64,000 bases of DNA from Longimicrobium sp. (GTDB lineage Bacteria; Gemmatimonadota; Gemmatimonadetes; Longimicrobiales; Longimicrobiaceae): positions 1-64,000 of the forward strand of contig DASUYB010000015.1 in assembly GCA_036377595.1 (NCBI GenBank), in the 5' to 3' direction. The translations under genes were made by a program, and so were the position numbers. A model generated the notes under the pieces. The model did not search any database and was not told the DNA's origin. It was given only the letters and a program-made list of their open reading frames with translations. Shown in pieces: positions 17,954 through 25,861 of the stretch (position 1 is its first letter; every line of letters begins with the position of its first letter).

Positions 17954-20900
17954 TCACTTGTACAGCCACACCCGCATCAGCGACAGCAGCTGGTCGGTGT
18001 CCACCGGCTTGGTGATGTAGTCCGACGCGCCGGAGGAGATCGACTTCTCGCGGTCGCCCTTCATCGCCTTGGCGGTGAGCGAGATGATGGGGAGCTCGGC
18101 GAACTCGGGCATCTCGCGGATGGCCCGGGTGGTCTCGTAGCCGTCCATCTCCGGCATCATCACGTCCATCAGCACGATGTCGATGTCGGGGTTGGCCCGC
18201 AGCACGTCGACCGCGTCCTTCCCGTTCTCCGCGAACACCACCTCCATCCCCTGCCCCTCGAGCACGCTGGTCAGCGAGAAGATGTTGCGCACGTCGTCGT
18301 CCACGATCAGCACCTTCTTGCCGCTGAAGGCGCTGTCGCTGCTGTGCAGCCGCTCCAGCATCCGCCGCTTCTGCTCGGGGAGCTTGGCCTCCACGCGGTG
18401 CAGGAAGAGCGCGGTCTCGTCCAGGAGCCGCTCGGGGCTCTTGGCGTCCTTGAGGATGATGGTCTCGGCGTAGCGGCGGAGCTGCGTCTCCTCCTCGCGC
18501 GACAGCTCCTTCCCCGTGTAGATGATGATGGGAAGGTCCTGCATGGCGTCGTTCGACTTCACCTGCTCCAGCAGCTTGAAGCCGTCGGTGCCCTGCAGCC
18601 CCAGGTCCAGCACCATGCAGTCGTAGTGCTTCTCGGCCAGCTCGCGCAGCGCCTCCTCGGCCGACGCGACGGCGGTGATCTCCACGTCGTCCTCGCCCAC
18701 CAGCTCGATGATGCTCTGGCGCTGCGTCTCGTCGTCCTCCACCACCAGCAGCCGCTTGACGCCGTCGGCCAGGAAGGTGGAGATGCGCTCGAAGGCGGAG
18801 TCCAGCGCCTCCTTGCTGACCGGCTTCTCCAGGTAGCTGAGCGCACCCTGCCGCAGCCCCCGCTGGCGCTTGCCGATCCCCGACACGATGTGCACGGGGA
18901 TGTGCCGCGTCGCGGGCGAGTGCTTCAGCCGGTCCAGCACCGTCCATCCGTCGATCCCCGGCAGGTCGATGTCGAGGGTCACGGCGTCGGGATGGAACTC
19001 CTCCACCAGCTCCAGCCCGGTCTCGCCGTCGAGCCCCACCAGCGCCTTGAAGTGCTTCTCGCGCGCCATCTCCAGCAGGATCCGCGCGAACGCCGGGTCG
19101 TTCTCGATGATCAGCACCACGCGGTCGCCCGGCTCGATCGACGAGCGGTCGTCGTGGATCCCCACCGCCTCGGGCTCGCGCGGGCGGCGGCGGCGCTCCA
19201 CCGTGGGCCCCTCGCCGGCGGCCGGCTCGGCCTCGGCGGGGCGAGGGCGCGCGCGGCGGGTGCGCGACGGGGCCGGCGCCGGCGTGGCCGCCACCGGCGA
19301 AGGCCCGCGCCCGCCGTTGCCGTTCCCCTCGCCGCCGTCGTCGTCGTCCTCGTCGGGGTGGTAGCCGTGCGGCTCGCCCGGCCACTCGCGCGGGAGGAAG
19401 AGGGTGAAGGTGCTCCCCTCGCCCTCGGCGCTCTCCACGCGGATCTCGCCGCCCAGCAGCCGCGAGATCTCGCGCGAGATGGTGAGCCCCAGCCCGGTGC
19501 CGCCGTACTTGCGGCTGGTGGTGCCGTCGGCCTGCTGGAAGGCCTCGAAGATCATCTTCTGCTTGTCGCGCGCGATGCCGATCCCCGTGTCGGCCACGGC
19601 GAAGGCCACCACCTCGTCGGCCTGGTCGAGCACGGGGTTGCCGAAGCGGCGGCTCTTGTCGGCCCGGCGCACGGTAAGGGTGACGCTTCCCTCGTGGGTG
19701 AACTTGAAGGCGTTCGACAGCAGGTTCTTGATCACCTGCTGCAGCCGCTGCCCGTCGGTCCACAGCGTCTCGGGCGCATCGGGCTCGAGGTTGACGACCA
19801 GCGCCACCCCCTTCTGCTCGGCCACGGGGCGGAAGGAGCGGTCGACGTAGCCCGCGACGTCCTGCAGGTACACGTCGGTCGGGTTGATCTCCATCTTCCC
19901 CGCCTCGACCTTCGACACGTCGAGGACGTCGTTGATCAGGTTCAGCAGGTCGGTGCCGCTGGCCAGGATGGTGTTGGCGTACTCGACCTGCTTCTCGCTG
20001 AGGTTCCCGTCCTTGTTGTCGGCCAGGAGCCGGCCCAGGATGAGCAGCGAGTTGAGCGGCGTGCGCAGCTCGTGGCTCATGTTGGCCAGGAACTCGCTCT
20101 TGTACTTGGAGCTGAGCGCCAGCTGCTCGGCCTTCTCCTCCAGCTCGCGCCGGGCCGTCTCGACCTCGGCGTTCTTCTGCTCGACCTTGCGGTTCTGCTC
20201 GGCCAGGAGGCTCGCCTTCTCCTCGAGCTCCTCGTTGACCTGCTGCAGCTCCTCCTGCTGGTCGCGCAGCGCCTCTTCGCTGGCCTTGAGGGTGCGGGCC
20301 TGCGCCTCGAGCTCGGCGTTGGTGCGGCGCAGCTCCTCCTGCTGGCTCTGCAGCTCCTTCGACTGGCTCTGCAGCTCCTGCGTGAGCTTCTGCGACTGCT
20401 CCAGCAGCTCCTCGGTGCGCATGTTGGCGGCGATCATGTTGATCACCACGCCCACGCTCTCGGCCAGCTGGTCCAGGAACACCTGGTGGATCTGCGAGAA
20501 GGGGTTGAACGAGGCCAGCTCGATCACCGCCTTCACCTCGCCCTCGAACAGCACCGGCATCACCATGATGCTGCGCGGCGGCGCCTCGCCCAGCCCGCTG
20601 GATATCACGATGTAGTCGTCGGGGAGTCCGGTAAGCAGGATCGGCTTCTTCTCCAGCGCCGCCTGGCCGACGAGCCCCTCGCCCGGGCGGAAGCGGTTGG
20701 AGACGTTCTTCCGGTGCTTGTAGGCGTAGCTGGCGATCAGCTTCAGCAGCATCCCGCCGTCCTCCTCGGCCAGGAAGAAGGCGCCGTGGTTGGCGCCGAC
20801 CAGCGGAGTGAGCTCCGACATGATGAGGCGCGAGATCGACTCCAGGTCCTTCTGCCCCTGCATCATGCGGCTGAACTTGGCCAGGTTGGTCTTCAGCCAG

Positions 20901-23900: not shown

Positions 23901-25861
23901 TGCCCGCCCAGCCGCCCCTCGGTTCCCACCTCGCGGGCCACGCGCGTCACTTCCGACGCGAAGGCGGAGAGCTGGTCCACCATCACGTTGATGGTGTTCT
24001 TCAGCTCCAGGATCTCGCCCTTGGCGTCGGCGGTGATCTTCTGCGACAGGTCGCCGTTGGCCACCGCGGTGGTGACCATGGCGATGTTGCGCACCTGGTT
24101 GGTGAGGTTGCCGGCCATGAAGTTCACGGCGTCGGTCAGGTCCTTCCAGGTGCCGCCCACGTTGGGCACCTCGGCCTGGCCGCCCAGGATCCCCTCGGTG
24201 CCCACCTCGCGGGCCACGCGCGTGACCTCGTCGGCGAAGACGGAGAGCCGGTCGACCATCGAGTTGATGGTGTTCTTCAGCTCCAGCACCTCGCCCTTCA
24301 CGTCCACCGTGATCTTCTGACTGAGGTCGCCGTTGGCCACCGCGGTGGTGACCATGGCGATGTTGCGCACCTGGTTGGTGAGGTTGCCGGCCATGAAGTT
24401 CACGCTGTCGGTCAGGTCGCGCCAAACGCCGGCGACCCCCTCCACGTTGGCCTGCCCGCCCAGGATCCCCTCCGTCCCCACCTCGCGGGCCACGCGCGTC
24501 ACCTCCGACGCGAAGGCGGAGAGCTGGTCCACCATCACGTTGATGGTGTTCTTCAGCTCCAGCACCTCGCCCTTCACGTCCACCGTGATCTTCTGCGACA
24601 GGTCGCCGTTGGCGACGGCCGTCGTCACCAGGGCGATGTTGCGTACCTGGTTGGTGAGGTTGCCGGCCATGAAGTTCACGGCGTCGGTCAGGTCCTTCCA
24701 CGTGCCGCCCACGCCCGGCACGTCGGCCTGGCCGCCCAGGATCCCCTCCGTCCCCACCTCGCGGGCCACGCGCGTGACCTCGCGGGCGAAGGCGGAGAGC
24801 TGGTCCACCATCACGTTGATGGTGTTCTTCAGCTCCAGAACCTCGCCCTTCACCTCCACAGTGATCTTGCGCGAGAGGTCGCCGCGCGCCACCGCCGTGG
24901 TCACGTCGGCGATGTTGCGCACCTGGGCCGTGAGGTTGCCGGCCATCTGGTTCACCGAGTCGGTGAGGTCCTTCCACGTCCCGGCGACGCCCGGCACCTC
25001 GGCCTGGCCGCCCAGGACGCCCTCCGTCCCCACCTCGCGGGCCACGCGCGTGACCTCGCTGGCGAAGGCGGAGAGCTGGTCCACCATGGTGTTCACCGTC
25101 TGCGCGATGCGCAGGAACTCACCCTGCACCGGCTTGCCGGCGATCTCCAGCGCCATCTTCTGGCTGAGGTCGCCGCGCGCCACCGCGGTGAGCACGCGGG
25201 CCACCTCGGTGGTGGGCTGCATCAGGTCGGTCAGCAGCGAGTTGATGGCGTTCACCGTGGTCGCCCATCCCCCGCTCACCTCGCCCAGGCTCACGCGGTC
25301 GGTGGCCTGCCCCTCGCGGCCCACGGTGATGGAGACGCGCGCCACCTCGGAGCTGAACTTCTCCTGCCGCGCGGCGATGTCGTTGACGGTGGCGGCGATG
25401 TCGCCCAGCAGCGGGTCGACCGAGTCGGGGAGGCGCACGGAGAAGTCGCCCGCGCGCACGGCGCGCAGCGCCATCAACAGGCGCCGCAGTTCGCCGCGCT
25501 CGCCGCCGTCTCCCTCGCCATCGCCGTTGCCGCGCACGCGGGCGCGGCGCGCGGGAGGCGCGGCCTCGGCGACGGCCGACGCGGCGCCGTTGCCGCGGCG
25601 GGCACGGCGGGCGGGCACCGGCACCGTCTCGGTGTCGGAGACCACGGGCGCGGCGGCGCGGTTCACCCGGCCGCGCGGACGCCGGCCCGCGGGAGCCGGG
25701 GGCAAGGGCGCCACGGCCTCGACGGCTTCGGGGGATAGGATGCCGGCCTCGGGCGCGGGAGGCGGCGCGGCGCGGCGCGCGCGGCGGCGGGGTGCGCCGT
25801 CGTCCGCGGTCGGCTGCGGGGTCGCGTCCATGGGGCGGTCGTCACCGTTCGGCACGGTCAT
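17954..25861 (-). CDS. Giant soluble HAMP-repeat hybrid histidine kinase (Nik1/group III-like)
   Basis: 2635 residues from the ATG at 25861, which has AGGAG just upstream; an in-frame ATG 30 bases on is possible. Residues 1-125 are Pro/Ala/Arg-rich. Residues 125-269 hold about two HAMP-like units. Residues 270-1649 are fifteen tandem 92-residue units, each starting [12 protein letters not shown] and each containing two HAMP-like halves ([11 protein letters not shown] and [11 protein letters not shown]). Then come a GAF domain (about 1665-1810), a Gln/Glu-rich coiled coil, HisKA ([18 protein letters not shown]), HATPase ([21 protein letters not shown]), and three receivers. The receiver acceptor sites are in [22 protein letters not shown] and [11 protein letters not shown]. 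No membrane segment is seen. The layout resembles fungal osmosensing Nik1 kinases, which carry about five such repeats. Signal is unknown. Confidence 0.93.
20915..25054 (-). repeat. Fifteen in-frame 276-bp tandem repeats encoding paired HAMP units
   Basis: Each 276-base unit encodes 92 residues with no length change across all fifteen copies. Units 6, 8 and 10 (with [16 protein letters not shown]) alternate with units 7 and 9, which are almost identical to each other, showing duplication of two-unit blocks. The last unit is the most diverged. Confidence 0.95.

Follow-up and report, generated by a model that had tools for sequence, protein, structure and literature searches.

Organisation of the locus

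The window analysed here, a 64,000-nucleotide stretch of Longimicrobium sp. DNA, holds on its minus strand an open reading frame that runs from an ATG at 25861 to a stop codon ending at 17954 and codes for a protein of 2635 amino acids (Table 1). The motif AGGAG ends 1 base 5' of this ATG and 7 bases 5' of a GTG at codon 3, and the true start of the kinase may therefore lie two codons downstream, at that GTG. Pfam analysis of the product returned HAMP (15 stretches, 6e-156), HAMP_2 (16 stretches, 2.6e-133), GAF_2 (4.7e-21), HisKA (1.2e-17), HATPase_c (1.1e-28) and three stretches of Response_reg. From the N-terminus, the order is a HAMP-like segment, a divergent unit, fifteen 92-residue units, GAF, HisKA, HATPase and three receivers. 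Hydropathy analysis in 19-residue windows gave no clear membrane segment, the maximum mean of 1.49 being reached at the end of the GAF domain. MCPsignal was not one of the 12 Pfam families reported for the kinase, which therefore does not class as a methyl-accepting chemotaxis protein (MCP); with concatenated N-terminal HAMPs and with HisKA, HATPase and receivers in one chain, it falls among the bacterial poly-HAMP (group III-like) hybrid kinases. An earlier sequence-only reading had described fifteen exact 92-residue units, a GAF domain, a kinase core and three receivers in a soluble protein lacking a membrane segment. The reading frame, unit spacing, Pfam matches and hydropathy bear this out, and these features support an assignment as a giant soluble poly-HAMP hybrid kinase. 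An antisense reading frame on the plus strand (17747-25738, 2663 aa) was read as a putative GC-rich shadow frame.

Table 1 Features of the poly-HAMP kinase gene and its operon (window coordinates)
Feature	Position	Strand	Basis
Poly-HAMP hybrid histidine kinase, 2635 aa	17954..25861	-	ORF and Pfam domains
N-terminal HAMP-like segment, aa ~126-172	25346..25486	-	First AF2 helix-connector-helix layer; aligned in 20 relatives
Divergent first unit, aa 173-269	25055..25345	-	97 aa to next unit; HAMP_2 best stretch aa 196-263
Array of fifteen 92-aa units, aa 270-1649	20915..25054	-	Exact spacing, identity matrices, unit profile
B-A-B-A-B block, units 6-10, aa 730-1189	22295..23674	-	Unit identities; common to G300
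GAF domain, aa 1671-1807	20441..20851	-	PF13185, 4.7e-21
GAF-HisKA coiled-coil linker, aa 1808-1920	20102..20440	-	Heptad register, whole-heptad length variation, AF2
Putative methyl-accepting Glu-pair motif, aa 1868-1879	20225..20260	-	Association with adjacent CheR/CheB; column scan
HisKA, aa 1921-1988, His1929	19898..20101	-	PF00512; SHELRTPL motif
HATPase_c, aa 2036-2158	19388..19756	-	PF02518, 1.1e-28
Receiver 1, aa ~2246-2365	18767..19126 (approximate)	-	Response_reg stretch; limits read from sequence
Receiver 2, aa ~2370-2490	18392..18754 (approximate)	-	Response_reg stretch; limits read from sequence
Receiver 3, aa 2517-2628	17978..18313	-	PF00072 best stretch
CheR methyltransferase, 315 aa from GTG	16499..17446	-	PF01739, 3.1e-40; PF03705, 2.1e-13
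CheB methylesterase without receiver, 201 aa	15894..16499	-	PF01339, 4e-53; ATG overlaps CheR stop
REC-PAS-HisKA-HATPase kinase, 617 aa	14044..15897	-	Pfam, synteny; start overlaps CheB stop

Downstream of the kinase gene lie genes for CheR, CheB and a REC-PAS-HisKA-HATPase kinase, the last in the position occupied by AskC in Myxococcus. For the two kinases, no NCBIfam profile passed its cut-off among the matches listed (25 of 148 and 25 of 156). Downstream sequence exceeded 2.5 kb at 145 poly-HAMP loci. Of these, 124 had a receiver-kinase within 6.5 kb downstream, 60 had CheR together with CheB, and 17 had neither partner kinase nor CheR. A locus was scored as having CheR/CheB when both genes lay within about 6.5 kb downstream; in three cyanobacterial loci so scored they are 4-5 kb away. 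This conserved operon of kinase, CheR-CheB and receiver-kinase is new.

Architecture of the HAMP array

The fifteen units begin at residues 270 to 1558 with a spacing of exactly 92 residues throughout, and the divergent unit that starts at residue 173 shares 21-28% amino acid identity with the others. The HAMP models do match the units, as the stretch counts above show. Pfam HAMP matches the second half of a unit, its best stretch (aa 1501-1552) lying within the one that starts at 1466, and no Pfam HAMP stretch was seen reported on the N-terminal segment at aa ~126-172. An AF2 model of residues 115-420 contains six helix-connector-helix layers, at a mean pLDDT of 62 and with confidence only over about the first 150 residues, which correspond to the N-terminal segment and the divergent unit. 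This confident part matches the poly-HAMP of Aer2 in Foldseek (E 0.004-0.03, probability 1.00), the search giving no match at E <= 0.001, and also with Z scores of 8.5-8.6 over model residues 1-151, values that common helical arrangements can give. Rows under HAMP-bearing entries in the Z-score search resembled helical look-alikes. In sequence, PDB entry 9TRK matches unit 1 and a portion of unit 2 (phmmer 7.7e-100); 9TRK is absent from the listed matches of both structure searches. The six-layer model and the match to 9TRK together suggest that every unit comprises two HAMPs, and the rod probably holds about 33 HAMP domains. The sequence-only reading had counted about 30 HAMP halves: Pfam identifies the second halves as HAMP, and the AF2 model and the 9TRK match suggest that the first halves are HAMPs too.

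Units 6-10 form an internal block in which units 6, 8 and 10 are 94-96% identical and units 7 and 9 are 100% identical at the amino acid level. At the DNA level units 7 and 9 differ at 15 nucleotides in 14 codons, all synonymous, and the longest exact DNA repeat is 140 bp. A congener (G300) has 16 units in the same order, including this block. Its presence there and the synonymous differences place the duplication before the two species split; the block is real, and the earlier view of it as recent is weakened. Since the congener's array is identical in unit number and order, it is very unlikely that the assembly has collapsed or expanded the repeats, and we rejected an assembly artefact as the source of the array.

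Variation in array length among relatives

The sample is not random: it draws on the 80 best-ranked of at least 577 relatives, and regions were chosen by hand. Nine loci were removed as duplicates or fragments (including both copies of G247) and 169 were kept; these still include a few duplicate contigs, and the counts therefore refer to loci rather than independent events. Unit spacings over the 169 loci were 92 residues in 1308 cases, 97 in 123 and other values in 16. The 122 complete arrays (at least 5 units, several phyla) held 5-16 units with a mode of 10, although in a few arrays a match to the N-terminal segment was counted as a unit (a spacing of 92 before that of 97), making the count possibly one too high. 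The 16 units of the window array equal the maximum of the sample, which Hyalangium versicolor (L090) and G300 reach as well, and a relative of 2876 residues (L179) has just 10. In all 13 arrays compared, it is the last unit that most resembles the last unit of the window array, and the internal units stay in register only with those of G300. Array length thus varies almost solely by whole 92-residue units between conserved end units, a rule that is new.

These lengths might be neutral, with unequal recombination adding and removing units within limits set by coiled-coil register and HAMP pairing, and extra units bringing no extra function. The range of 5-16 and the loss of register outside the nearest relative fit such drift, and a change in the length of one HAMP tract between congeneric myxobacteria, by expansion or contraction, has been described (PMC4603909). 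Yet the window and its congener keep 16 ordered units that differ at 29 of 1472 residues, compared with 218 synonymous codon changes, and 42 of the 122 complete arrays have 10 units (in this non-random sample). We judge neutral length to have slightly less than an even chance.

Relation to known poly-HAMP proteins

This kind of kinase is already known, and a homologous array is in the PDB. Entries 9TRK and 9TRJ contain a histidine kinase in fusion with Gcn4p and match the divergent unit together with those after it (phmmer 7.7e-100 and 1.6e-53); they differ in being short N-terminal constructs of 356 and 264 residues, and the comparison is one of sequence. The 2010 HAMP survey by Dunin-Horkawicz and Lupas reportedly included very long arrays. 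Bacterial poly-HAMP hybrid kinases with arrays exceeding that of Nik1 have been published: Myxococcus xanthus AskB (MXAN_6735) and AskA (MXAN_0712) and Sorangium Amb07 are likewise soluble and carry several receivers (PMC7643160). The earlier claim that an array of this size had not been described is not supported for the kind, given the long arrays in print and the 15-16 units of other taxa here; a published count of exactly this size was not found in the literature searched.

The gene askC lies directly downstream of askB, and AskC binds both AskA and AskB (PMC7643160). The window likewise has a downstream receiver-kinase, but differs in having CheR-CheB between the two kinases and an array of 16 units, AskA and AskB being compared by description. 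The partner binding and the response to ambruticin and glycerol were reported for Myxococcus only (PMC7643160). Our 15-unit Myxococcus relatives (L093, L096 and L097) have 80-residue linkers and no adjacent CheR/CheB. Fungal group III kinases (Nik1, TcsC), also compared by description, are cytosolic and place HAMP repeats ahead of the kinase core and receiver, but their HAMPs are fewer (six for TcsC of A. fumigatus, going by a title cited in PMC11253588) and they feed the HOG pathway; PMC11253588 itself calls group III kinases fungal-specific. The best Foldseek matches, Aer2 entries 3LNR, 4I3M and 4I44, share the concatenated HAMP fold, whereas Aer2 has three HAMPs in a soluble chemoreceptor with no histidine kinase (PMC3570549). 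The orphan hybrid kinases AZOLI_p30171 and AZL_c01470 of Azospirillum, with as many as ten sensing domains, among them nine tandem HAMP-GAF (PMC4618731), are shorter; the three Azospirillum loci in our sample have a receiver-kinase and no adjacent CheR/CheB.

The GAF-HisKA linker

The length of the GAF-HisKA linker leaves a remainder of 3 on division by 7 in all 156 loci measured (13 of the 169 had no anchor), whereas a control segment, measured in 132 loci, was distributed over all seven remainders. The linker thus varies by whole heptads, which is also new. In its AF2 model (mean pLDDT 69), two long helices are interrupted by a break of low confidence. Linker length gave no clean rule as a marker of CheR/CheB and was discarded as such (Table 2).

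Table 2 Linker length and adjacent CheR/CheB (number of loci)
Linker (aa)	CheR and CheB	None	CheR only	Unknown
108	35		1	1
101	27	50	4	4
94		1
87		21		1
80	2	6		1
73		1
59				1

For comparison on a tree, sequences with 98% identity and equal CheR/CheB status were collapsed to 160 rows, the status being clear for 144 of these. The motif QQEEL...NEEL, picked after viewing the sequences, was present in 55 of 70 rows with CheR/CheB against 3 of 74 without, and a relaxed motif gave a weaker contrast (59 of 70 against 17 of 74). The association is clade-structured and not significant after phylogenetic correction: six independent pairs on supported branches gave on average 2.6 pairs in the same direction, 0.0 in the opposite direction and 3.3 without difference (median p 0.25). 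In a column scan the linker supplied 16 of the 30 columns most associated with CheR/CheB, the best GAF column scoring 0.55 and the best linker column 0.56. With six duplicates removed, conservation in the CheR/CheB group versus the others was 0.81 versus 0.72 for the linker and 0.79 versus 0.72 for receiver 3. The 21 loci with 87-residue and six with 80-residue linkers that have no CheR/CheB, Myxococcota by source, do not have the motif-bearing heptads, whereas their relative L091, which has CheR/CheB, keeps them. MCP methylation sites are flanked by small residues, and the linker motif is without these.

Proposed mechanism and alternatives

We favour, at a probability of about 0.6, an explanation that combines a poly-HAMP relay rod, a partner receiver-kinase, an array length set in paired HAMPs and tuning of the linker by CheR/CheB. 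Its domains, array, operon and length rules are observed. We infer a dimer, a two-state relay and a phosphorelay partner: the kinase, a soluble bacterial poly-HAMP protein comparable to Myxococcus AskA/AskB, would presumably be dimeric. The ~33 HAMPs would form a rod of ~75 nm (our own estimate, assuming ~2.3 nm per HAMP), and the long relay rod suggested by the sequence-only reading is plausible. Layers of the rod would flip between two packing states and so bias the GAF domain, the coiled-coil linker and the kinase core, from which His1929 would pass phosphate to its own receivers and to the partner receiver-kinase of the operon. Alternate HAMPs would take opposite states, so that only pairs preserve the sign of the output; length steps of whole 92-residue units would be expected if this were so. 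By analogy with chemotaxis receptors, the operon may encode a kinase tuned by protein methylation. We hypothesise from these sequence patterns that, in lineages such as that of the window, the co-encoded CheR and CheB methylate and demethylate the linker Glu pairs, setting or adapting the output of a non-MCP kinase. The comparative rules (near-exact 92-residue steps, whole-heptad linker steps and a conserved operon) weigh more than the single protein. Together these rules provide a natural series in which to ask over what distance, and with which sign, a HAMP array passes on a signal, and whether CheR/CheB adaptation acts on kinases other than chemoreceptors.

The strongest form of this proposal is chemotaxis-type adaptation without chemoreceptors, in which reversible methylation by CheR and the receiver-less CheB, at Glu pairs spaced by heptads along the GAF-HisKA coiled coil, would give a one-component kinase with memory, its array kept in HAMP pairs for sign; we put it forward as a doubtful possibility. 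Our literature search established no precedent for CheR/CheB methylation of histidine kinases, although one may be in print. The two enzymes might instead serve ordinary chemoreceptors, their place in the operon reflecting co-regulation and the linker pattern clade history, and to this we give somewhat less than even odds. The window genome has 6 MCP, 4 CheW and 3 CheR matches, and an MCP match was found in 29 of the 30 genomes searched. Such a role also agrees with the non-significant pairs test, with the many Nostocales that have a similar linker and no adjacent CheR/CheB, and with a group difference in receiver 3 that nearly equals the linker's. Against it, in a further new observation, one genome (G047, 96% complete) has the cassette with its own CheR as the single copy and 0 MCP and 0 CheW matches. 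The cassette is also conserved across several phyla, and it stands downstream of 6 of 9 related kinases in which no array was detected. Chemotaxis CheB usually carries a receiver, and the window CheB shows none. Against the methylation hypothesis itself, two loci with CheR/CheB have 80-residue linkers.

Two readings of the array other than the relay rod were weighed. A mechanical or osmotic sensor, as the sequence-only reading had proposed, for which crowding or strain on the rod would be the signal, agrees with the length of the rod and with the osmotic signalling of fungal group III kinases with HAMP repeats (PMC11253588; PMC3846623); we consider it improbable, as the window holds no pointer to osmosis and the closest characterised bacterial kinases known respond, with AskC, to ambruticin and glycerol (PMC7643160). 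A DNA-binding scaffold, as proposed for AskA/AskB from HTH-like repeat matches, draws on the binding of PmrpC DNA by AskB in vitro (PMC7643160), and Pfam SpoIIID matches the window kinase too (4.6e-9). We hold this to be highly improbable and rejected an HTH reading of the repeats: SpoIIID had 0 stretches passing alone, so that its score appears to add up weak matches to the repeats, whereas HAMP scored far higher on the array.

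Architecture of the kinase

The giant soluble hybrid kinase is genuine, large and well preserved and belongs to an already known kind; its anatomy was as the sequence-only reading had described it, with the array, GAF domain, kinase core and three receivers all found (Table). An AGGAG motif lies 1 base ahead of the ATG and 7 ahead of the GTG that forms codon 3; translation may therefore start two codons downstream.

Features of the window and of the kinase
Feature	Position	Strand	Remarks
Poly-HAMP hybrid kinase gene	25861 to 17954	minus	2635 aa
HAMP-like segment of kinase	aa ~126-172		N-terminal part
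Divergent unit of kinase	aa 173-269
Fifteen units of kinase	aa 270-1649		spacing exactly 92 aa
B-type units 6, 8 and 10	aa 730-821, 914-1005, 1098-1189
Domains after array			in order: GAF, 113-aa linker, HisKA (His1929), HATPase, three receivers
Antisense open frame	17747-25738	plus	2663 aa; along most of kinase gene
Response regulator-like frame	12965-13759	minus	within 10941-13766
HAMP-PAS histidine kinase frame	10941-13766 region	minus	beside response regulator-like frame
tRNA-Ser (tga)	33907-33990	minus	only RNA gene from two RNA searches of window
BNR/Asp-box-like repeat protein	34114-36732	plus	872 aa; repeat matches, no single stretch passing alone
RHS-repeat protein	56310-61805	plus	1831 aa; PF05593, 1.1e-29

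At two HAMPs per 92-aa unit, we infer 33 HAMPs in total. The Pfam HAMP match falls on the second half of a unit, and one helix-connector-helix layer per unit half was obtained in an AF2 model that is confident only over approximately the first 150 residues (the N-terminal segment and the divergent unit). This confident part matched the poly-HAMP of the soluble chemoreceptor Aer2 (E 0.004-0.03); comparison of the model with structures gave no match at E 0.001 or better. At the sequence level, a match to PDB 9TRK, a histidine kinase fused to Gcn4p, runs through unit 1 into unit 2. The Pfam models SpoIIID, GLE1 and CMD also scored on the repeats (aa 1305-1335 and similar), no single stretch being significant, and the HTH calls in the paper on AskA and AskB, the poly-HAMP hybrid kinases of Myxococcus xanthus, may have the same cause.

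Array length and integrity

Relatives were collected by a contig search in which the best 80 of at least 577 were kept; by title these came from Gemmatimonadetes, myxobacteria, cyanobacteria, actinobacteria, acidobacteria, alphaproteobacteria and others. Among 169 loci examined, 122 had complete arrays with five or more units: 5 and 6 units in one locus each, 7 in two, 8 in nine, 9 in one, 10 in 42, 11 in six, 12 in 19, 13 in 20, 14 in six, 15 in 12 and 16 in three. The three 16-unit arrays belong to the window, to the congener G300 and to Hyalangium versicolor; the window kinase is therefore joint longest in this sample, not alone, and the earlier suggestion of an undescribed size does not hold for a kind already known. 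A search with units (E ≤ 1e-5, no more than 16 candidates being scored in any genome) matched 65 of the 298 genomes from this phylum, including that of the window. When the kinase core was the query, matches came from 8 of the 10 genomes available for the genus, again including the window's, and from 92 of 195 in Hyalangium's phylum at E ≤ 1e-90, a threshold that also lets in kinases without an array. At E ≤ 1e-140 they were found in 10/247, 4/296 and 23/244 genomes of the phyla to which one acidobacterial, one actinobacterial and one cyanobacterial locus belong, respectively.

An assembly artefact is made very unlikely by G300, which is 91% identical in the core and has the same 16 units in unchanged order. 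Same-position units are 89-96% identical in DNA, and across the array the two species differ at 29 of the 1472 residues and by 218 synonymous codons.

Units 6-10 had been proposed as a recent block duplication. The block is present, with the pattern B-A-B-A-B in both species, but a very recent copy is argued against: units 7 and 9 encode the same protein within each species yet differ at 15 nucleotides in the window and 12 in G300, and G300 unit 7 is closer to window unit 9 (8 differences) than to window unit 7 (18). Their protein identity points to purifying selection and perhaps gene conversion. B-type units have 81-97% matches in five Gemmatimonadota arrays besides G300 (L039, L049, L053, L056 and L058). 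The figure drops to 69% in L045, also of this phylum, and does not exceed 72% in the six compared arrays from elsewhere; some Gemmatimonadota appear to have retained two unit types.

Two length rules

The most useful outcome of this analysis is a pair of length rules, together with the CheR/CheB question discussed below. Over the 169 loci, unit spacing was 92 aa 1308 times, 97 aa 123 times (in most cases where the divergent first unit lies) and another value 16 times. The last unit of the window was nearest to the last unit in 13/13 compared arrays, and inner units were out of register beyond G300. Arrays therefore seem to gain and lose whole units internally, keeping conserved ends. Work on Aer2 suggests that alternate HAMPs are in opposite states (PMC3570549); if, as we infer by analogy, this extends to the present arrays, only HAMP pairs would preserve sign.

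The second rule concerns the linker, which measured 59, 73, 80, 87, 94, 101 or 108 aa between fixed anchors, leaving a remainder of 3 modulo 7 in all 156 anchored loci (anchors were absent from 13 of the 169). All seven remainders were represented in a control stretch from the ATPase G-box to a receiver Asp motif (132 loci). A continuous in-register coiled coil would give such whole-heptad lengths; the AF2 model of this part (mean pLDDT 69) is helical apart from one break of low confidence.

The downstream cassette and the linker Glu pairs

After a 507-bp gap the kinase gene is followed on the same strand by CheR, a receiver-less CheB and a REC-PAS-HisKA-HATPase kinase, with stop/start overlaps at the CheR-CheB and CheB-kinase junctions. 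Among 145 poly-HAMP loci followed by more than 2.5 kb of sequence, a receiver-kinase lay within 6.5 kb in 124, CheR plus CheB in 60, and neither receiver-kinase nor CheR in 17. In M. xanthus, askC directly follows askB, and AskC binds AskA and AskB (PMC7643160). CheR, CheB and a receiver-kinase also follow 6/9 related kinases without a detected array (one of the nine ends at a contig edge), and the cassette therefore extends wider than the poly-HAMP family. Eight loci (L192, L212-L215 and L217-L219) encode related hybrid kinases of ~1200 aa, no array being detected, with CheR next downstream; six of them have CheB and the receiver-kinase too, and L219 is contig-cut.

One hypothesis is that CheR and CheB may methylate and demethylate the kinase on its linker. 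Candidate methylation sites would be the linker Glu pairs at aa 1842-1843, 1870-1871 and 1877-1878, at heptad b/c in the best-scoring register. The strict motif QQEEL...NEEL, picked post hoc from data already seen, occurred in 55/70 rows with CheR/CheB (both within ~6.5 kb downstream) versus 3/74 without, and a relaxed motif in 59/70 versus 17/74. The top 30 of a core-column scan comprised 16 of 113 linker columns, 8/158 GAF, 5/177 HATPase and 1/68 HisKA, the best GAF column (0.55) being close behind that of the linker (0.56). Loci with CheR/CheB showed higher conservation of the linker (0.81 against 0.72 in those without) and likewise of receiver 3 (0.79 against 0.72), but not of GAF (0.78, 0.77), HisKA (0.86, 0.84) or HATPase (0.79, 0.77). 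In AskB-like loci of Myxococcota that lack CheR/CheB, the linker falls 21 or 28 aa short of the window's and the Glu-pair heptads are missing; a relative with CheR/CheB (L091) retains these heptads. Nostocales and others blur the association. On the tree, CheR/CheB status switches 13 times. Six independent pairs gave means of 2.6 in the same direction, 0.0 opposite and 3.3 without difference (median p 0.25). The association between motif and CheR/CheB is thus consistent in direction but unproven.

The genome G047 (96% complete) carries the cassette, whose CheR is its only one, and gave no MCP or CheW match, although the missing 4% could hide a receptor. G127 yielded a single match each for CheR, MCP (weak) and CheW (partial). 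MCP matches were found in 29 of 30 searched genomes, not all cassette-bearing, with six in the window genome.

Other features of the window

The pair at 10941-13766 was named PhoB/PhoR-like by its layout, and the antisense frame is interpreted as a shadow frame arising from GC-rich codons.
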